Assembly (NCBI GenBank): GCA_021813085.1
Contig: JAKAMA010000021.1
Location: 1 to 13,490, forward strand
Source of the DNA: Chloroflexota bacterium
Lineage (GTDB): Bacteria > Chloroflexota > Dehalococcoidia > DSTF01 > JACRBR01
Length of the DNA stretch: 13,490 nt
Reading direction: 5' to 3'
A model generated the notes under the pieces. It was given only the letters and a program-made list of their open reading frames with translations, had not been told where the DNA came from and did not search any database. Each line of letters starts with the position of its first letter. The first letter of the stretch is position 1. Positions 3,215 to 11,567 of the stretch are shown piece by piece. Both the position numbers and the translations under genes were made by a program.

Positions 3215-4681
3215 ATGGACTGGCAGGAGATCTACAGGCAGCGGCTCACCACCGCGGACCAGGCCGTGCAGGCCGTCAAGTCAGGCGATACCGTCGTCCT
3301 GTCGATCTTTCCGCCGCTGACGCTGCCGCCCGCCCTCGCCGCCCGCAAGGACGACCTGCGCGACGTGACGATCCGCCTGCTCGCACCCGCCGCCGACCCC
3401 GGCTGGCTGCGCATGCCCGACGAGTCCGTCTTCAGCGTCGAGTTCGAGCTCTACATCGGCGACTTCGCCCGCTTCGTCACCGACGAGCGGCGCGGCTCCT
3501 ACCTGCCCAACCTCTTCTCCCTCGGCATGAAGGCCTACGACCAGAAGCGCCCCGACGTCCACCTCCCCGACGTCATCATGTGCAGCGTCTCGCCCCCGAA
3601 CCGCGCCGGCTTCTGCCACTTCGGCGCCCACCACTGGGTCCAGCGCTCCTACGCCCGGCGCTGCCCGACGGTGATCGCCGAGGTCAACCCGCACCTCCCC
3701 CAGGTCTACGGGGACGTCTACATCCACGTCTCCGAGATCGACCACTTCGTCGAGCTGCAACTGCCGCCCTTTGGCCGCGCCGAGTTCGACCGCGCCGTCG
3801 CCACCATCGCCGACCCGGTGCGCCGCGAAGGTTGGCGCAAGCTCGGCGACGAGCTGCCCGATATCAGCGTCCTCGCCGCCGTCGCTGGCGTCATGGCCGC
3901 CGTCTCACCCGAAGACGCCCGCCGCCTGCTCGGCATGGCCGAGCCGCCACCCGAGGCCGTGCCGATGGCGCGGTACCTCAACGAGATCGTCGAGGACGGC
4001 GACACGGTCCAGATCGGCACCGGCGAGCCGTCGCGCGGCGTCACGCGGCTCGGCGCCTTCGCCGGCAAGAAGCACCTCGGCATCCACACGGAGCTCGGCT
4101 GGCCCGGCCTCGCCCGCCTCTGGCGCGACGGCATCGTCGATGGCAGCCGCAAGGAGGTCCACCGCGAGAAGAGCGTCGCCGTTGCCTGGACGGGCTGCGA
4201 CCCGAACGACCTCGACATCATCGATGGCAATCCGCACTTCGAGCTGTACGACCCGGAGTACGTCCTGCACCCGCGCACGCTGACGAAGTTCGACCACTTC
4301 ATCGCCATCAACAACGCGGTTTCGGTGGACCTGCTCGGCCAGATCAACGCGGAGAGCGTGTTCGGCGGCCGCATCATCAACGGCACGGGCGGCCAGCCGG
4401 AGATGCACCTCGCCGGCGCCTTCTCACCCTACGGGCGCGCGATCACGCTGCTGCCGTCGACGGCGATGGGCGGCGCGGTGTCGCGCATCGTCGCGCAGAT
4501 GGAGCCCGGCTCGCTGGTCACGATCCCCCGTTTCTACGCCGACGTCGTGATCACCGAGTTCGGCGTCGCGCGCCTCTGGGGGAAGAACCACCGCCAGCGC
4601 GCCGAAGAGCTGATCGCCGTCGCCCACCCCGACCACCGCGACGACCTGCGCGCCCAGGCCCGCGCGCTCTGGTGGCCGTGA
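3215..4681 (+). CDS. Acetyl-CoA hydrolase/CoA-transferase (Cat1 / 4-hydroxybutyrate CoA-transferase family)
   Basis: Moves CoA between acyl-CoAs and free carboxylic acids (acetate, butyrate, 4-hydroxybutyrate, propionate or succinate in known members), or hydrolyses acetyl-CoA; cytosolic. The 488-residue product has the two-domain family layout: an N-terminal domain ending near 230 (IAEVNPHLPQVYGD is typical), then the C-terminal half with the CoA-site loop GTGEPS at 268-273, the likely catalytic Glu293 in GIHTEL (aligned by motif with Glu238 of Clostridium aminobutyricum AbfT, GIHSEM), GTGGQ at 390-394, and TEFGVARLWGK from 447. ATG 3215 has GAGGAGG 4 bases upstream. It is somewhat longer than the usual 430-450 residues. 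The exact substrate is not readable. An acyl-CoA thioesterase lies next to it, convergently, so both act on CoA thioesters. Confidence 0.92.
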   Translation: MDWQEIYRQRLTTADQAVQAVKSGDTVVLSIFPPLTLPPALAARKDDLRDVTIRLLAPAADPGWLRMPDESVFSVEFELYIGDFARFVTDERRGSYLPNLFSLGMKAYDQKRPDVHLPDVIMCSVSPPNRAGFCHFGAHHWVQRSYARRCPTVIAEVNPHLPQVYGDVYIHVSEIDHFVELQLPPFGRAEFDRAVATIADPVRREGWRKLGDELPDISVLAAVAGVMAAVSPEDARRLLGMAEPPPEAVPMARYLNEIVEDGDTVQIGTGEPSRGVTRLGAFAGKKHLGIHTELGWPGLARLWRDGIVDGSRKEVHREKSVAVAWTGCDPNDLDIIDGNPHFELYDPEYVLHPRTLTKFDHFIAINNAVSVDLLGQINAESVFGGRIINGTGGQPEMHLAGAFSPYGRAITLLPSTAMGGAVSRIVAQMEPGSLVTIPRFYADVVITEFGVARLWGKNHRQRAEELIAVAHPDHRDDLRAQARALWWP

Positions 4682-4695
4682 TGCGCGGGCGATGA

Positions 4696-4723
4696 GAGGT
4701 CAGAGGTCAGAGGTCGGAGGTCG
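4696..4723. repeat. Heptamer tandem array (GAGGTC[A/G]) x 4
   Basis: Four 7-bp units GAGGTCA, GAGGTCA, GAGGTCG, GAGGTCG start 14 bases after the CoA-transferase stop. Read on the other strand the unit is the one found upstream of that gene (GACCTC core), so the gene is bracketed by the repeat in inverted orientation. Confidence 0.85.
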
Positions 4724-4752
4724 GAAGGGGTCGCGTCCCGCGGGTGCCCCCT

Positions 4753-4780
4753 CCAACATCCAACATCCAACCTCTAACAT
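4753..4780. repeat. Second heptamer array (CCAACAT-type) x 4
   Basis: Units CCAACAT, CCAACAT, CCAACCT, CTAACAT, followed by a partial CCA. Same 7-bp period as the neighbouring array but a different unit. It fills the gap between the convergent CoA-transferase and thioesterase genes, where I see no convincing terminator hairpin. Confidence 0.8.
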
Positions 4781-4799
4781 CCAGTTCCCCCGGCGACCC

Positions 4800-5225
4800 T
4801 CACGGCATCGGCACCACCGCCAGCGTGCAGCGCGAGATGCACACCAGCTTCCCCGATTCGTCGCGGATCTCGATCGTCCAGACCTGGCTCGTGCGGCCGA
4901 TGTGCACCGGCTCCGCCGTCGCCCGCAGCAGCCCGTCTCGCTTCGGCCGCAGGTGGTTCGCGTTGATCTCCTGGCCCACGGCCACCATGCCCTCCGGGCA
5001 GTTGCGGCCCGCGCCGACCGACGCCGCGCTCTCCGCCAGCACCAGCGAGGCGCCGCCGTGCAGGATGCCGAACGGCTGGTGCACGCGGCTGCTGACCTCC
5101 ATCGTCATCACCACGCGCTCCTTTGAGATCTGCTCGAAGCGCATCGGGATCGCCTGGCCGATCACCTCGGCCATGCGCGCGTCCCACGCCCGGAGGTCGC
5201 CCTCCGGCGGCAAGGATCGTGGCAT
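4800..5225 (-). CDS. Hotdog-fold acyl-CoA thioesterase (PaaI family, EntH/YdiI-like)
   Basis: Hydrolyses an acyl-CoA or aroyl-CoA to the free acid and CoA in the cytosol. The 141-residue product matches the EntH/YdiI type closely: HQPFGILHGGASLVLAES at 49-66, with Gln50, His56 and Glu65, which correspond to Gln48, His54 and catalytic Glu63 of E. coli YdiI (MenI); then EINANHLRP and QVWTIEIRDESGKLVC. The start is set at 5225 because GAGGAGG lies 5 bases upstream on the minus strand. The in-frame ATG at 5246 adds seven residues, lacks a ribosome binding site, and would place that GAGGAGG inside the gene. YdiI itself acts in menaquinone synthesis, but no menaquinone gene is visible here, so the substrate is open. 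It is divergent from the GNAT gene. Confidence 0.92.
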   Translation of the reverse strand: MPRSLPPEGDLRAWDARMAEVIGQAIPMRFEQISKERVVMTMEVSSRVHQPFGILHGGASLVLAESAASVGAGRNCPEGMVAVGQEINANHLRPKRDGLLRATAEPVHIGRTSQVWTIEIRDESGKLVCISRCTLAVVPMP

Positions 5226-5373: not shown

Positions 5374-5952
5374 ATGACGACCGAGACCCCTACAGCCGGA
5401 TACAGCCGCACGTACCCGCGCGAGGCGCGCCTCAAGGGGGACAGGACGTTCCACCTGCGGCTGATGGACAAGACCATGCGCGATGCCGTGCTGGCCTTCG
5501 CGCGTGCGCTGCCGAAGGGCGACATCCTCTTCCTGCGCATGGACGTCACCGAGCCGCGCAACGTCGACATCTGGCTCCAGAACATCGCCGCCGGGCGCAC
5601 GATCACCCTCACGGCCTGGGACGGCGAGACGCTCGCGGGCTACGCCAGCCTCCATACGAACGATGTGCTGTGGACGCGCCACGTCGGCGAGATCCGCACG
5701 ATCGTCGGACAGGACTACCGCGGCATCGGCCTCGGGGCGCGGCTCGTCGAGGAGATGTTCGAGGTCGCGAAGCAGTTGGGGCTCAGGAAGATCACCGCCC
5801 AGATGACGTCCGACCAGCCGGGCGCGCGCGGGACCTTCGAGCGCGCCGGCTTCCGCCCGGAGGCGCTCCTCACCGACCACGTCATCGACAGCGAGGGCCG
5901 CACGCACGACATGCTGATCATGTCGTACGACATCGACGGGTTTAACGACTGA
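5374..5952 (+). CDS. GNAT-family N-acetyltransferase
   Basis: Transfers an acyl group, usually acetyl, from CoA to an amine of an unidentified acceptor. In the 192-residue product the acetyl-CoA pyrophosphate loop (motif A) is QDYRGIGLGARL, with Q113, R116 and the glycines of RGIGLG. It is preceded by the strand HVGEIRTIVG and followed by LGLRKITAQM and the motif-B region ARGTFERAGFRPEALL. The first 70 residues hold the more variable acceptor side. ATG 5374 has GGGAGG 4 bases upstream. A possible -10 box TACGAT at 5332-5337 would give a leader of about 30 bases, but no good -35 is seen. It shares a 148-bp divergent region with the thioesterase. It could be a protein or small-molecule acetylase; the sequence does not decide. 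Confidence 0.88.
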   Translation: MTTETPTAGYSRTYPREARLKGDRTFHLRLMDKTMRDAVLAFARALPKGDILFLRMDVTEPRNVDIWLQNIAAGRTITLTAWDGETLAGYASLHTNDVLWTRHVGEIRTIVGQDYRGIGLGARLVEEMFEVAKQLGLRKITAQMTSDQPGARGTFERAGFRPEALLTDHVIDSEGRTHDMLIMSYDIDGFND

Positions 5953-7349: not shown

Positions 7350-8882
7350 CTACACCGCCGGCGCCACCGGCGCCTGCTGCGCCGCTGGCGTGGCGGCCTT
7401 GCGGCGCGCCGGCTTCGCCCCGTTGCCGGCCGGCGCCCGCCCGTTCGACGGCCGCGCCACGCCGACGTCGCGCAGGTCGCTCGCGACGACACCCGCCGCG
7501 GCGCGCAGCCGCTGGAACTCGTCCGCGAACAGCCGCGCGATGACGTCGACGTCGGCGAGGATCTCCGGGTCGGAGATGATCGTGACGTACAGCCCCTTGT
7601 CGAAGCTCGTGATGCCGACGCCGATGCCGAGGTCGCCCGCCAGCGGCACCAGCGGGTAGTGCGCCAGCATGCGATGGCCGACGCTGTACAGCGGGATCAG
7701 CGGCCCGGGCACGTTCGTGCAGACGAGGTTGAGCGCGCCGCGCGGCACGCCCCCCATGCCGGCCAGCGCGTGGTACGCCGCCGGGATGTCCTCCGCCAGC
7801 GAGATCAGCGACTCGAAGGCGTCCGCCTGCCGCTGTGCCTTCAGCCGTCCCGTCTCCTCGCGCACGGCGGCGAGCCGCCGCACCGGGTCGGCAATGCCGA
7901 CCGGGATCTCGGGCAGCATCATCGACACGCGGTTGCCCAGCGCGCCCTTCTGGTCCTCGCGCCGCACGTTGACCGGGATCTGGAGCCGCAGCGTCGCGCC
8001 CTCCGTCTTGACGCCGTGGGATTCGAGGTAGCGCCCCAGCGCGCCGCCGAGCAGCGTCAGCATGACGTCGTTCACCGTGCCGCCCAGGGCGGATCGGATG
8101 CCGCGCACGTCGGTGAAGGAGACGTCGGTCCAGGCGACGCGCCGCTTGCCGCTGACCGGCTTGTTCCACGGCGCCGGCCGTGGCTGCCGGAGTGCCAGCG
8201 GCATCGCCACCTCGAGGGCGTGCGACAGCTCGGTCAGCCGCCGGAACTGCGCCCGGGCGTCCAGCAGCGTCTCCTGCCAGTCCGTCCAGGCGCGCAGCCC
8301 GGCCTCCCAGCGGTCGAGGAGCGCGTCCGTCCACGCCTCCATCGGCCCGGAGATCGCGCGCGGCTGCCACGGCTCGGCCGGCGGCGACGGTGGCGCCGGG
8401 TCCGGCGTCAGGTCCAGCACCGCCAGCAGCAGGTCGATGCCCGAGACGCCGTCGACCAGGCAGTGGTGCACCCGGCTCAGATACGCCGTCCGCCCGCCCG
8501 CGAGGCCGCGGATGACCGCGATGTCCCACAGCGGGCGGTCGCGCGGCAGCATCTCGGCGAACAGCTCGCCCGCGAGATCCAGGAGCTGCTGGTCGCTCCC
8601 CGGCGCGGGCAGATCGAACGCCCGCACGTGCCGGTCGATGCTGAACCGGGGGTCGTCCTCCCACGTGGGGTGCGCGGCGTGGAACGGCGGCACGACCGCG
8701 CGCTGCCGGTAGCGCGGGATCAGGTGCATGCGGGCATCGACGCTCTCCCGCAGCCGCTCGAAGGGGATATCGCCCTCGAAGATGGCGACCGAACCGATGT
8801 GGAGGGGCGCCTCCGGCTTCTCGAAGTACAGGAACCAGGCATCTTCGGCGCTCATGCGCCTCGACGGACGTGCTGACGGCAT
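7350..8882 (-). CDS. Wax ester synthase/diacylglycerol acyltransferase (WS/DGAT)
   Basis: Joins a fatty acyl-CoA to a fatty alcohol or diacylglycerol, making wax ester or triacylglycerol that collects in lipid bodies at the membrane. The 510-residue product carries the catalytic HHCLVDG (His139, His140, Asp144, Gly145), TVNDVMLTLLGGALGRYL, GNRVS at 316-320 and NVPGP at 390-394, all typical of the family, in order. The N-terminal MSAEDAWFLYFEKPEAPLHIG is also typical. The start at 8882 is supported by AGGAGG 7 bases upstream. The alternative Met nine residues later (8855) is the usual family start but has no ribosome binding site. The last 35 residues form an Ala/Pro tail with six Lys/Arg and no acid, beyond the normal family end. 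It is divergent from the lipase gene, so synthesis and breakdown lie side by side. Confidence 0.93.
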   Translation of the reverse strand: MPSARPSRRMSAEDAWFLYFEKPEAPLHIGSVAIFEGDIPFERLRESVDARMHLIPRYRQRAVVPPFHAAHPTWEDDPRFSIDRHVRAFDLPAPGSDQQLLDLAGELFAEMLPRDRPLWDIAVIRGLAGGRTAYLSRVHHCLVDGVSGIDLLLAVLDLTPDPAPPSPPAEPWQPRAISGPMEAWTDALLDRWEAGLRAWTDWQETLLDARAQFRRLTELSHALEVAMPLALRQPRPAPWNKPVSGKRRVAWTDVSFTDVRGIRSALGGTVNDVMLTLLGGALGRYLESHGVKTEGATLRLQIPVNVRREDQKGALGNRVSMMLPEIPVGIADPVRRLAAVREETGRLKAQRQADAFESLISLAEDIPAAYHALAGMGGVPRGALNLVCTNVPGPLIPLYSVGHRMLAHYPLVPLAGDLGIGVGITSFDKGLYVTIISDPEILADVDVIARLFADEFQRLRAAAGVVASDLRDVGVARPSNGRAPAGNGAKPARRKAATPAAQQAPVAPAV

Positions 8883-8924
8883 GGCGGGGCCTCCTGCCGG
8901 CCTTGTGTCCCCCCGTGGAGAGAT

Positions 8925-8940
8925 CCGAAGTATACTTCGG
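8925..8940. promoter_or_regulatory. Perfect 16-bp palindrome, likely operator
   Basis: CCGAAGTATACTTCGG is its own reverse complement over all 16 bases. It lies 43 bases upstream of the WS/DGAT start in the divergent region and stands out as AT-containing in a GC-rich stretch. Its centre holds TATACT (5 of 6 to the -10 consensus) on both strands, but no -35 sits at the right distance on either. A dimeric regulator site is the simplest reading; which regulator is unknown. Confidence 0.55.
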
Positions 8941-9029
8941 CCGCCGCCGCCCGGTGCGGGTTGATGAGAAGATCTTGCGAAAAATGGCCGTGTGCCTCTG
9001 GCGCCCGCTGATACGCCGGCGGGCCGGGA

Positions 9030-9052
9030 TTGCTTATATACTGTCAAAGCAA
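9030..9052. promoter_or_regulatory. Dyad TTGCTT-N11-AAGCAA with AT-rich core
   Basis: TTGCTT (9030-9035) and AAGCAA (9047-9052) are perfect inverted arms around an 11-base core beginning ATATACTG. The core contains TATACT (9037-9042), a -10-like box 86 bases before the lipase start, and on the minus strand a perfect TTGACA (9042-9047) without a matching -10. Between this and the lipase start lie a 12-bp palindrome GGCCGTACGGCC (9094-9105) and a GGGCG/CGCCC stem (9075-9087), so the lipase leader should be folded. Confidence 0.4.
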
Positions 9053-9127
9053 GGATGATGTGCGGGTAGCGGCTGGGCGCCGCGCCCCGGACGGGCCGTA
9101 CGGCCGCACACGCCGCCAGGGGGAAGC

Positions 9128-9901
9128 GTGACAGTAGCGACAGCCCCGCACGCCGAGACCAAGCGCTATGAGCCGACCAGCCGCCCCATCTGGCTCGAAG
9201 CCCTCTTCCCCATCGACTGGCTCTGCCTCCACGCCTCGCCCGTGTACTACGGCTTCGGCGTCCCGCGCGGCCACGGCGAGCCCGTCATCGTCGTCCCGGG
9301 CTTCCTCGGCAGCGACCGCTACCTGACGGAGATGCACCTCTGGCTACGCCGGATCGGCTATCACCCCTACTTCTCGGGCATCGGCCGCAACGTGGACTGT
9401 CCGGAGCTGCTCACGCAGCGGCTGCTGATGACGGTGCGGCAGGCGCACAACGAGACGCACCAGAAGGTGACGATCATCGGCCACAGCCTGGGCGGCATGC
9501 TCGCCCGCGCCGTCGCGCATCGCGAGCCGGAGCTGGTCAAGCAGGTGATCACGCTCGGTTCGCCATTCCGGTCGCTGCGCGCGCACCCGATCATCCTCAG
9601 CGCCGCGAACCTCGTGCGCTCCAACATCGTCGGGGCGCGGCGGGGCCGCCGCGAGGTGAAGCAGAGCTGCTACACCCCGGATTGTAGCTGCAGCTTCGTG
9701 CGCACGCTGACGGACGAAGAGCCGGACGACCTCTACCGCCGCACCGCCATCTATTCGAAGGTGGATGGTGTCGTCGACTGGCGCTCGTGCATCGAAGACG
9801 ACGTCGCGCTCAACCACGAGGTCACCGCCACCCACATCGGCATGGCGTTCAACCCGGACGTCTATCGCACCGTCGGGAACCTGCTCGCCGGGGTGGTGTA
9901 G
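9128..9901 (+). CDS. Alpha/beta-hydrolase, lipase/esterase type
   Basis: Probably hydrolyses ester bonds of a lipid or storage polymer. The 257-residue protein has the lipase layout: oxyanion-loop region VIVVPGFLGSD, nucleophile elbow GHSLGG with Ser120, likely acid Asp213 in SKVDGVVDW, and His236 in THIGM. These give a full Ser-Asp-His triad. A cluster of Cys181, Cys186 and Cys188 (SCYTPDCSC) lies in the cap region. No signal peptide is visible, so it acts inside the cell. The start is GTG 9128, 3 bases after GGGGGA; no better ATG is available. It is divergent from WS/DGAT and convergent with the phasin gene, which suggests a role in mobilising stored lipid or polyester. It could instead be a general triacylglycerol lipase. 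Confidence 0.88.
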   Translation: MTVATAPHAETKRYEPTSRPIWLEALFPIDWLCLHASPVYYGFGVPRGHGEPVIVVPGFLGSDRYLTEMHLWLRRIGYHPYFSGIGRNVDCPELLTQRLLMTVRQAHNETHQKVTIIGHSLGGMLARAVAHREPELVKQVITLGSPFRSLRAHPIILSAANLVRSNIVGARRGRREVKQSCYTPDCSCSFVRTLTDEEPDDLYRRTAIYSKVDGVVDWRSCIEDDVALNHEVTATHIGMAFNPDVYRTVGNLLAGVV

Positions 9902-9972
9902 CGAAGGCGCTTCCGCTCCGTCCCACGTCACGCGCGCCAGACGCCGGCCCCCGCGCCGCGGCCCGGGCGTGA

Positions 9973-10008
9973 CAGAGGGCGGAGCCGCGATGCGGACTCC
10001 GCCCTCTG
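9973..10008. terminator. Two-sided hairpin between convergent lipase and phasin genes
   Basis: A perfect 12-bp stem pairs CAGAGGGCGGAG (9973-9984) with CTCCGCCCTCTG (9997-10008), continued inward by CCGC/GCGG around loop GAT with one bulged A. In total 16 bp. It sits 71 bases after the lipase stop and 25 bases past the phasin stop on the other strand, so it can serve both. No T-run follows on the lipase side; on the phasin side no strong T-run is seen either. Confidence 0.65.
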
Positions 10009-10033
10009 CCGTCGGGCGCCTGTTGCCTGTAGT

Positions 10034-10561
10034 TTACTCCGTCGCCGCGCCGTTCGCAGCGGCCGCCGCCTTCTTCGCCTTCGCGGCGGTGGCGGCCGCG
10101 GTGCTGGCGGGCTGCTCCGCCTGCGCACCGGGGCGGCTCGTGATGCGGGTCACACCTGTGCGCACGCGCTCGGCCGTCACGCCTGCGACGTCCCGCGCTG
10201 CCTCGACGGCCGCCTCGCCCGCCGCGCGCTGCGCCTTGACGACCTTCTCGATGGTCTCGCGCGCCTCGCTGCGGGACTCGGACAGCTCGTCGAACATCTG
10301 GCGCGCCAGTTCGAGGGCGCGCCCCTGCGCCTTGGTCGTCGACTCCATCATCGCGCGGTAGAAGCCGCCGATGTCCGTCGGGTCATCCGCGAACTTGCGG
10401 CCCAGGTCGACCGCCTCGCGCTGGCCGCGCTGGGCCTCGCCGAGCAGGGTGCTCGAGACGCGGTAGCCGCGCTCGTTCCCGGCCTTGATCGCCTCGATGA
10501 TGGCGTCGTAGCTCTCCGTGAGCGCCTCGAAATACTTGTCGACCGCGGTGTTCTTCGCCAT
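10034..10561 (-). CDS. Phasin-like granule-associated protein with Ala/Lys tail
   Basis: A 175-residue, almost wholly helical protein, expected to coat the surface of storage granules (polyhydroxyalkanoate in known phasins) and control their size and number. From MAKNTAVDKYFEALTESYDAI to about residue 140 it is amphipathic, heptad-like helix without Pro (AKAGNERGYRVSS, KAQGRALELARQMFDEL, ETIEKVVKAQRA). The last 34 residues are Ala-rich with a KAKK cluster, resembling the DNA-binding tails of PhaF-type phasins. The start at 10561 is chosen because the helix begins there. AGGAGG lies 13 bases upstream, rather far, with GGGG closer. Phasins are poorly conserved, so the call rests on helix pattern and context: PadR regulator upstream and divergent, PhaE-like protein two genes away, lipase and WS/DGAT alongside. 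Confidence 0.75.
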   Translation of the reverse strand: MAKNTAVDKYFEALTESYDAIIEAIKAGNERGYRVSSTLLGEAQRGQREAVDLGRKFADDPTDIGGFYRAMMESTTKAQGRALELARQMFDELSESRSEARETIEKVVKAQRAAGEAAVEAARDVAGVTAERVRTGVTRITSRPGAQAEQPASTAAATAAKAKKAAAAANGAATE

Positions 10562-10622
10562 GGCTTCCCCGTTTCCTCCTGAATTGCCGTCCCGGCGGGA
10601 CTTGCATCGCCTCGTTGATAGA

Positions 10623-10633
10623 TGTAGATTACA
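10623..10633. promoter_or_regulatory. TGTA-N3-TACA dyad over the phasin -10, candidate PadR operator
   Basis: TGTAGATTACA has perfect 4-bp arms and covers the whole -10 box and the bases toward the transcription start. A wider reading is ATGT-N7-ACAT, near the ATGT-N8-ACAT form described for PadR-type operators. It lies between the divergent phasin and PadR genes. A protein bound here would block RNA polymerase at the phasin promoter. That PadR is the binder is inference from position and motif style. Confidence 0.5.
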
Positions 10634-10655
10634 CATAGCAGCAGTCGGCTGTCAA
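10628..10655 (-). promoter_or_regulatory. Sigma-70-type promoter of the phasin gene
   Basis: Read on the minus strand: -35 TTGACA (10650-10655, 6 of 6), a 16-bp spacer, and -10 TGTAAT (10628-10633, 5 of 6). Transcription should start near 10621, giving a leader of about 60 bases. It is the best promoter match in the window. Confidence 0.7.
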
Positions 10656-10724
10656 GTGGTAGCATCATCTAGCGGCAGAATAATGTTGGGCGCCGGCGGA
10701 CCCGGCGCCGGGAGACGTGATACG

Positions 10725-11132
10725 ATGGTCAGGCGCAAGGACGACGAGCAGGACACGCCCTTCCGGATGCACGGCGACCTGCTCACCACGACGCTGCTGG
10801 CGTTCCTCCGCAACTGGAACGCCTACGGCTACCAGCTCGCGCAGCAACTGGCGCAGGCGGGCCTGCCGGCCTTCGATTCCGGCACCGTCTATCGCACGCT
10901 GCGCCAGCTCGAGAAGACCGGCCTCGTGTCGTCGTTCTGGGACACGTCCGAGTCCGGCCCCGCCCGCCGCATGTACTCGCTGACGAAGGCGGGCGAACTG
11001 TTCCTCTCAAGCTGGATCGACGTCCTGGGGAGGTACCAGGCCGTCCTCCAGAAGACGCTCGACGGCTTCGCCCCGGCGGCGGGCATCGAGCAGGACGACG
11101 AGCAGACGCCGCCCCGCGCGGCGCGCCGGTAG
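10725..11132 (+). CDS. PadR-family transcriptional regulator (PhaQ-like position)
   Basis: A 135-residue winged-helix DNA-binding protein, expected to act as a dimer. The PadR signatures are in order: LLAFLRNWNAYGYQL (helix 1 to 2, Gly35-Tyr36), recognition region GTVYRTLRQLEKTGLV (53-68), and wing GPARRMYSLT (78-87), then a C-terminal dimer helix and a charged tail. The start at 10725 has GGGAG about 10 bases upstream; an in-frame ATG at 10683 would add 14 Gly/Pro-rich residues without a clear site. A possible promoter is GTGGTA (10656-10661), 17 bp, AATAAT (10679-10684). In Bacillus the PadR-type repressor PhaQ sits next to phasin genes and responds to polyhydroxybutyrate. Its place here, divergent from a phasin and 45 bases ahead of a PhaE-like gene, suggests the same job. 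Confidence 0.88.
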   Translation: MVRRKDDEQDTPFRMHGDLLTTTLLAFLRNWNAYGYQLAQQLAQAGLPAFDSGTVYRTLRQLEKTGLVSSFWDTSESGPARRMYSLTKAGELFLSSWIDVLGRYQAVLQKTLDGFAPAAGIEQDDEQTPPRAARR

Positions 11133-11177
11133 CAACGGCGCCGGACGCTCAGGCAGGACGCCGGAAGGAGCGCACCC

Positions 11178-11567
11178 ATGACAGAGAAGCAGACGGAGAA
11201 CCCCCTCGACCTCTGGCGGCAGTTCATCACCGACTCGGAGCGCCAGTGGAACGGCTTCTTCAAGGACGTGCTGGGCACCGACGCGTTCTCGACCGCCATG
11301 AACACCTGGGTCGAGACGTCGCTCACGATCCAGCGCATGGTGGCCGACAATCTGGAACGCTACTACAGCGCCTTCAACATCCCGACCCACGGCGACCTCG
11401 TCGCCCTCGGCGAGCGGATGAAGGGGATCGAGGACACGCTCGCGCGCCTCGAGGCGGCGCTCGCGGCCGCCGCGCCGGAGATCGCCGCCCGCGCCATCCC
11501 GGTGCGCACGAAGCCGCGCCGGACGAAGCGCCCGCCGGTCGCCGCGCACCCGAACGGCGCGCGCTGA
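11178..11567 (+). CDS. PhaE/PhaR-like PHA synthase partner or small phasin
   Basis: A 129-residue helical protein. DLWRQFITDSERQWNGFFKD at the start, GTDAFS at 33-38, a long helix to about 63, the NIPTHGDLVALGERM element (67-81) and the coiled coil GIEDTLARLEAAL (83-95) are the order seen at the ends of PhaE and PhaR, the small subunits of class III and IV PHA synthases, and in related granule proteins. NIPT(R/H) followed by a short coiled coil is the most telling part. The tail (100-129) has eight Lys/Arg and no acid. ATG 11178 has GGAAGGAG 7 bases upstream. It follows padR by 45 bases, likely in one operon. It is shorter than PhaE, and no PhaC is in the window, so it may act as a phasin. 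Confidence 0.65.
   Translation: MTEKQTENPLDLWRQFITDSERQWNGFFKDVLGTDAFSTAMNTWVETSLTIQRMVADNLERYYSAFNIPTHGDLVALGERMKGIEDTLARLEAALAAAAPEIAARAIPVRTKPRRTKRPPVAAHPNGAR

Follow-up and report, generated by a model that had tools for sequence, protein, structure and literature searches.

We analyzed a 13,490-nucleotide stretch of DNA (the window) from a bacterium of the class Dehalococcoidia (Chloroflexota), which is contig C339 of a draft genome of 399 contigs with a completeness of 76.8%. The window carries five adjacent genes resembling those for storage of polyhydroxyalkanoate (PHA) and neutral lipids, with an outlying acetyltransferase gene and a predicted regulatory site. A first-pass annotation had described the five as a storage-granule module comprising a wax ester synthase/diacylglycerol acyltransferase (WS/DGAT), a lipase, a phasin-like helical protein, a PadR-type regulator, and a small PhaE/PhaR-like protein, and all five were recovered as real genes at those positions. 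Relatives of the window proteins, where named, belonged to Dehalococcoidia or Chloroflexota. The features are listed below.

5374 to 5952, plus strand: GNAT acetyltransferase gene (Pfam Acetyltransf_1), outer member of the conserved island
7350 to 8882, minus strand: WS/DGAT gene (TIGR02946, PF03007, PF06974)
9128 to 9901, plus strand: gene for a lipase-like alpha/beta hydrolase with the probable triad S120-D213-H236 (Pfam, conservation, AF2 model)
10034 to 10561, minus strand: gene for the phasin-like helical protein, in the phaP position and divergent from phaQ; relatives weakly match phasin models
10617 to 10639, no strand assigned: predicted PhaQ operator, the 23-bp imperfect palindrome GATAGATGTAGATTACACATAGC (weight matrix, pattern search)
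10628 to 10655, minus strand: predicted phasin promoter, with the -35 box TTGACA at 10655-10650 and the -10-like hexamer TGTAAT at 10633-10628 inside the operator
10725 to 11132, plus strand: gene for a PhaQ-like PadR-family repressor (TIGR02719, PF03551)
11178 to 11567, plus strand: gene for a PhaR-like subunit of a class IV-type PHA synthase (TIGR02132)

The strands of the five genes are minus for WS/DGAT, plus for the lipase, minus for the phasin-like gene, and plus for both phaQ and phaR. The locus therefore consists of at least four transcription units rather than one operon, and it contains two divergent pairs, WS/DGAT with lipase and phasin with phaQ. The regulator matched the Pfam PadR family at 65 bits, in agreement with the PadR signatures noticed earlier, and its closest model was TIGR02719 (PhaQ), which scored about 110 bits against a cut-off of 139.35, while the next NCBIfam model reached about 40 bits. 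TIGR02719 was matched by all 17 aligned PhaQ-like sequences, the window included (best E value, 2e-37). The protein is closest to PhaQ, the polyhydroxybutyrate-responsive repressor of Bacillus, and is best regarded as its homologue, with equivalence unproven. The small protein matched only TIGR02132, the PhaR model (33.5 bits; E value, 4e-8; residues 2 to 103). When it was aligned with 18 of the 274 PhaR-like proteins found, TIGR02132 was matched by 19/19 sequences and the PhaE model by 6/19 (best E value, 0.0055). From the earlier PhaE/PhaR-like assignment, the PhaR side was retained and PhaE was rejected on these scores, and the protein appears homologous to PhaR, as a diverged relative of this class IV PHA synthase subunit. 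Because the PhaR-like and PhaQ-like proteins both score below the equivalog cut-offs, they are considered homologues and not proven equivalents. Those of the best 120 of the 274 PhaR-like proteins that were named by a source were called hypothetical. A search for plasmid relatives of PhaR returned none, and comparison of PhaR and the phasin with solved structures gave weak matches only, to lamin coiled coils and a designed helix bundle. The PhaR-like family also ends in a conserved basic KPxRTKxP tail, which perhaps binds nucleic acid or the granule.

The order of these genes was kept in relatives. Among 197 genomes of the class, 21 had a PhaR-like match, which is a lower bound, since three f7 genomes (G003, G044, and G065) carry a much diverged phaR-like frame (21 to 25% identity) adjoining phaC that the profile search missed. 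Neighborhoods were hand-chosen from gene-search results, and neighbors were counted by hand in 20 fetched neighborhoods and the window itself; a contig scan with two narrow peptide patterns gave six loci. Beside phaR, we found the phasin-like gene in 20/21 genomes, the lipase gene in 18/21, phaQ in 17/21, and WS/DGAT in 11/21. The full order in relatives is GNAT, WS/DGAT (minus), lipase (plus), phasin (minus), phaQ (plus), phaR (plus), phaC (plus), and a second GNAT gene (GNAT2, plus). It is complete in G051 and G180, and the same order without GNAT2 occurs in L072 (family f55) and L068 (f61). phaQ is missing from three f4 loci, and six f36 loci and the f23 locus are without WS/DGAT. The first GNAT gene adjoins WS/DGAT in loci of families f1 (not L059), f4, f55, f61, and f70.

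The name of the helical protein was less direct. The window protein matched none of the phasin models searched, and its relatives matched them weakly; the earlier designation as phasin-like was supported, more weakly than the PhaR assignment. Among 19 aligned sequences and at E values up to 5, PF09361 was matched by 10/19 (best, 0.006), TIGR01841 by 7/19 (best, 1e-4), and TIGR01985 by 5/19 (best, 1.5e-4), and phasin models were the families most often matched. A strong match to the protein was present in 25 genomes after 2 of 27 (G001 and G009; weak) had been dropped beforehand, and 21 of these 25 also carried phaC. Because of its position and its co-occurrence with phaC, phasin is the best name for this protein. 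Several relatives are labeled by JGI as DNA anti-recombination protein RmuC and one as gas vesicle protein, which are likely mislabels. A second phasin-PadR pair with two operator-like sites was seen in L081 (G085:C52), adjacent to a phaC-like frame that is highly divergent (29% identity).

The synthase gene phaC was then located. Most relatives have phaC, often with GNAT2 after it, directly behind phaR; phaC adjoined phaR in 17 of the 21 PhaR-like genomes, lay on another contig in three of the window's family, and was not found only in the incomplete draft of the window. phaR was accompanied by phaC in 20/21 genomes, a count that, like the Fisher values for these co-occurrences, is not corrected for shared ancestry and was obtained after 21 of 51 genomes with a phaC match had been dropped beforehand because their best match was below 30 bits. 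phaC and GNAT2 are found elsewhere in the window's genus: they lie on other contigs, well inside them, in G016 and G148, and phaR and phaC were not adjacent in the genus. In L005, a single contig carries both genes, phaC lying 5.2 kb downstream and separated from phaR by other genes. All five genomes searched from the window's family, apart from its own draft, contain phaC. In that draft no phaC sequence was found, but its contig C259 (3,860 bp) is a 90% match to the phaC neighborhood of G148 and breaks off within GNAT2, with phaC expected about 200 bp farther on. Because C259 ends so close, the lack of phaC in the draft is most likely the result of a contig break, with phaC apart from phaR in this genus. 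The first-pass annotation had stressed that no PhaC was in view; as a trait of the organism, this absence was rejected, given the phaC of same-genus relatives and the break at the expected place. PhaC proteins of four relatives scored best with the class III model TIGR01836 (320 to 358 bits; cut-off, 365) and contain the cysteine lipase box GYCMGG, and the scan of these four returned no PhaC model of class IV. In the 17 linked loci, the phaR and phaC matches are less than 0.6 kb apart, too close for a phaB of the usual size. GNAT2 (L062, 11342-11872; also L078, L079, L080, and L131) is related to the GNAT gene at 5374-5952 and lies 3' of phaC, which it accompanies in the relocated loci too; in L131, it follows phaQ and phaRC is absent. 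The phaC matches of L066 (G184) and L076 (G158) are in two pieces, as are the lipase and GNAT matches of L066, perhaps through sequencing errors or frameshifts.

A palindrome with the consensus GCTATGTGTAAATTACACATAGC recurs between phasin and phaQ, and the window copy is at 10617-10639. Using a weight matrix trained on 13 sites from 11/21 loci, we found it beside phaQ in 24/24 loci at 16 to 41 bits (20 loci, the f70 loci L103 and L121, and L131 and L134), while a 1-Mb Markov background yielded a single 12-bit site and none from 13 bits upward. In the window's own draft genome, a pattern search allowing two mismatches or fewer returned 10617-10639 as the sole match and none with the reversed control. 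The three f4 loci lack phaQ, and no palindrome lies between their phasin and phaR genes; one of these loci, L076, has a 13.5-bit match elsewhere. No site precedes the relocated phaC in L078 to L080, where the sole match (12 bits) is about 5 kb beyond phaC in L078. With a matrix built only from f1-type sites, the phasin-phaQ gap still came first in 13 of 15 other phaQ-bearing loci, the exceptions being L065 (best site before lipase) and L086. These results suggest that the palindrome is probably the PhaQ operator. It overlaps a predicted phasin promoter: a promoter search in 17 of the 24 loci, taking the best of several spacings, placed TTGACA 16 to 18 nucleotides from a -10-like hexamer inside the palindrome, and when TTGACA was then checked in all 24, a perfect copy stood on the phasin strand, 9 to 10 bases outside the palindrome, in 19. 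The phasin promoter was not among the results of a generic promoter scan.

Altogether, the window's phaP, phaQ, and phaR quite probably belong to a Dehalococcoidia storage island for PHA of the Bacillus (class IV-like) type, which also takes in WS/DGAT and a lipase. This reading is favored for the window's organism, and function is inferred throughout. The PhaQ-like repressor would bind the palindrome, which spans the phasin promoter's -10 region and precedes phaQ, until appearing granules titrate it. Phasin would then be made and coat the granule, with phaQ and phaR rising along with it; PhaR would partner the unlinked PhaC for PHA synthesis, while WS/DGAT may form wax ester or triacylglycerol and the lipase may mobilize stored ester. 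Several results weigh against this interpretation. The PhaR-like score is far below the equivalog cut-off (33.5 versus 148.4 bits) and the PhaQ-like score is below its curated one (about 110 versus 139.4). The phasin matches of the relatives are weak (best E value, 1e-4), with none for the window protein, and phaC is missing from the draft. The linked loci have no room for a phaB gene between phaR and phaC, in contrast to Bacillus. TTGACA is absent in 5/24 loci (L064, L065, L069, L074, and L086), and the promoter on the phaQ side is poor. Experimental evidence of PHA in these bacteria, looked for only in the literature search, was not found.

WS/DGAT is a frequent neighbor in this island. The window protein scored 396 bits with TIGR02946 (cut-off, 310), and its HHxxxDG motif is the HHCLVDG pointed out earlier. 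Genomes had one or two strong copies each. For the co-occurrence counts, 11 of 28 genomes with a WS/DGAT match (best match of 66 bits or less) had been dropped beforehand. An improbable explanation is that WS/DGAT and lipase are chance neighbors of the PHA genes without a common function. It would fit the separate strand of each unit and two genomes, G085 and G196, in which GNAT, WS/DGAT, and lipase stand together apart from phasin-phaQ-phaR. It would also fit the regulatory sites: in the window, no operator-like site precedes WS/DGAT or lipase, and the only one found is that between phasin and phaQ, so that one switch over all five genes, as first proposed, is unsupported. On the other hand, an operator-like site stands before lipase in two of three g87 loci (L064 and L065, not their genus-mate L074). 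Despite so few copies per genome, 14 genomes have both a strong WS/DGAT gene and phaR, and in 11 of them, from four families, the two lie within a few kilobases of each other. Moreover, in G025 (L101 8189-10811; G025:C21), WS/DGAT is convergent with and adjoins a second phaC; no phaR or phasin match was found within the 19.9 kb fetched there. In the WS/DGAT tree, families f1, f4, and f61 each have a supported group of copies, but the two f70 copies are not together. A single group (support, 89/90, below the tool's mark of 95/80) takes in every island copy, separate from the unlinked f1 copies, and this group also contains three unlinked or phaC-side copies, namely both from G025 and one from G174. 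Of the earlier module, a real, conserved set of PHA-type genes with WS/DGAT as a frequent neighbor was sustained, while the absence of PhaC and the single switch were not.

Some islands were found without a detected phaC. A strong phaC match was missing in 4 of the 25 strong-phasin genomes: the window's draft, G153, G154, and G173. In f70 genomes G153 and G197, the order is GNAT-WS/DGAT-lipase-phasin-operator-phaQ with no phaR after phaQ, and TIGR01836, PF07167, and the PhaR profile had no match in 4/4 f70 genomes, two of which have the phasin. The absence of phaR and phaC in f70 is not proven because these genomes are 72 to 92% complete, G153 is a scaffold with N runs, and the profile can miss a diverged phaR. 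In G173 (f36, 90% complete), lipase, phasin, two operators, and phaQ are followed within about 150 bases by GNAT2; the island is gap-free inside a 430-kb contig, phaR-phaC is absent there, and no phaC was found elsewhere (best PhaC-like match, E value of 0.015). G154 has a phasin relative and none of the other island genes in the 12 kb fetched. In addition, the Ralstonia eutropha phasin PhaP1 binds triacylglycerol inclusions when expressed in triacylglycerol-storing bacteria, according to the available text of PMC6273058. These observations would suit a module in which phasin, PhaQ, and lipase mainly serve wax ester or triacylglycerol made by WS/DGAT, with PHA secondary or absent. This has a low probability, since phaC is present throughout the window's family outside its draft, six f36 genomes and G194 (f23) keep lipase-phasin-phaQ-phaR-phaC with no TIGR02946 match anywhere, the f70 absences carry the limits given above, and the only WS/DGAT of G173 is diverged and on another contig. 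The phasin-coated neutral-lipid body raised by the first-pass annotation is less favored than the PHA reading for this organism but is a live possibility in the f70 and G173 lineages. Tentatively, phasin and PhaQ with its operator could have been reused as coat and switch of a WS/DGAT-made lipid body, the island serving both granule types where both synthases are present, and at least two lineages could have lost phaR-phaC while retaining phasin, PhaQ, operator, and lipase for their present role in lipid bodies.

The substrate of the lipase bears on the same question. The protein has the GxSxG motif GHSLGG, and S120, D213, and H236 are invariant in 18/18 aligned sequences, the window included and the split lipase of L066 left out, and the full triad reported earlier can probably be assigned from conservation and order. 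In its AF2 model (pLDDT, 81.8; 18 sequences used), the nearest folds are bacterial lipases and esterases, the best being triacylglycerol lipases and esterases; PHA depolymerases were not among the 50 best matches shown, although they could occur lower down. A role of the enzyme as an intracellular depolymerase of PHA, instead of a lipase for neutral lipids, is compatible with the PHA island but somewhat unlikely. The gene adjoins phasin in genomes with phaC yet without WS/DGAT (f36 and f23) and adjoins phaC in G056; against this, it also stands beside WS/DGAT without phaRC (f70) and beside phasin without phaRC (G173), its best folds are as stated, and depolymerase models match it weakly (E values, 0.012 and 0.02). 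Because the gene occurs with WS/DGAT alone or with phasin alone, its position cannot decide between PHA and neutral lipid. The family also has conserved cysteines: C221 is invariant, and C181, C186, and C188 are nearly so, these three being missing in L088 and situated within or close to a region that was modeled with low confidence.

Two further neighbors were observed in the window. An acyl-CoA transferase gene (AcetylCoA_hyd_C) and a hotdog thioesterase gene at 3215-5216, in an order shared with G148, G051, and G180, possibly serve monomer supply or removal. An Mrr-type restriction endonuclease gene (PF04471; 6318-7229) between GNAT and WS/DGAT looks like an insertion because only about 230 bp occupy this place in the near-identical relative L058 and no other fetched locus of a PhaR genome matched the gene.

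Finally, we compared the island with known systems. Among the literature matches listed, as far as their available text extends, no work on PhaQ or PhaR of Chloroflexota or on WS/DGAT-phasin islands was recognized. The phaQP-phaRBC locus of Bacillus (Priestia) megaterium is a class IV PHA locus (PMC8390425 and PMC9049629, available text). As described there, it has the same kinds of player as the island (phasin, PhaQ-type repressor, PhaR subunit, and PhaC synthase) and is likewise laid out divergently, with phaQ regulating its own promoter region as is predicted here. In contrast, phaQ and phaP are cotranscribed in B. megaterium and diverge from phaRBC, whereas here the phasin gene diverges from phaQ-phaR; phaB is absent between phaR and phaC; WS/DGAT, lipase, and two GNAT genes are added; and the proteins fall below the equivalog cut-offs. 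The likeness points to Bacillus-type PHA control by PhaQ and PhaR in Chloroflexota, and the predicted operator offers a concrete site for testing it. With the class III PhaEC system, the island shares a probable two-subunit synthase and the class III affinity of the relatives' PhaC, but its partner subunit matches PhaR far better than PhaE. Rhodococcus jostii RHA1 also combines PHA and neutral-lipid capacity, including WS/DGAT with the active-site motif, in one genome, and its 14 WS/DGAT genes are scattered and, in the available text of PMC2667194, not described as clustered with PHA genes. Islands in which phaC was not found make natural phasin coating of neutral-lipid bodies directly testable. 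Unlike in RHA1, as described in that text, the one or two strong WS/DGAT copies here are mostly linked to the PHA island, which joins two storage chemistries usually studied apart.

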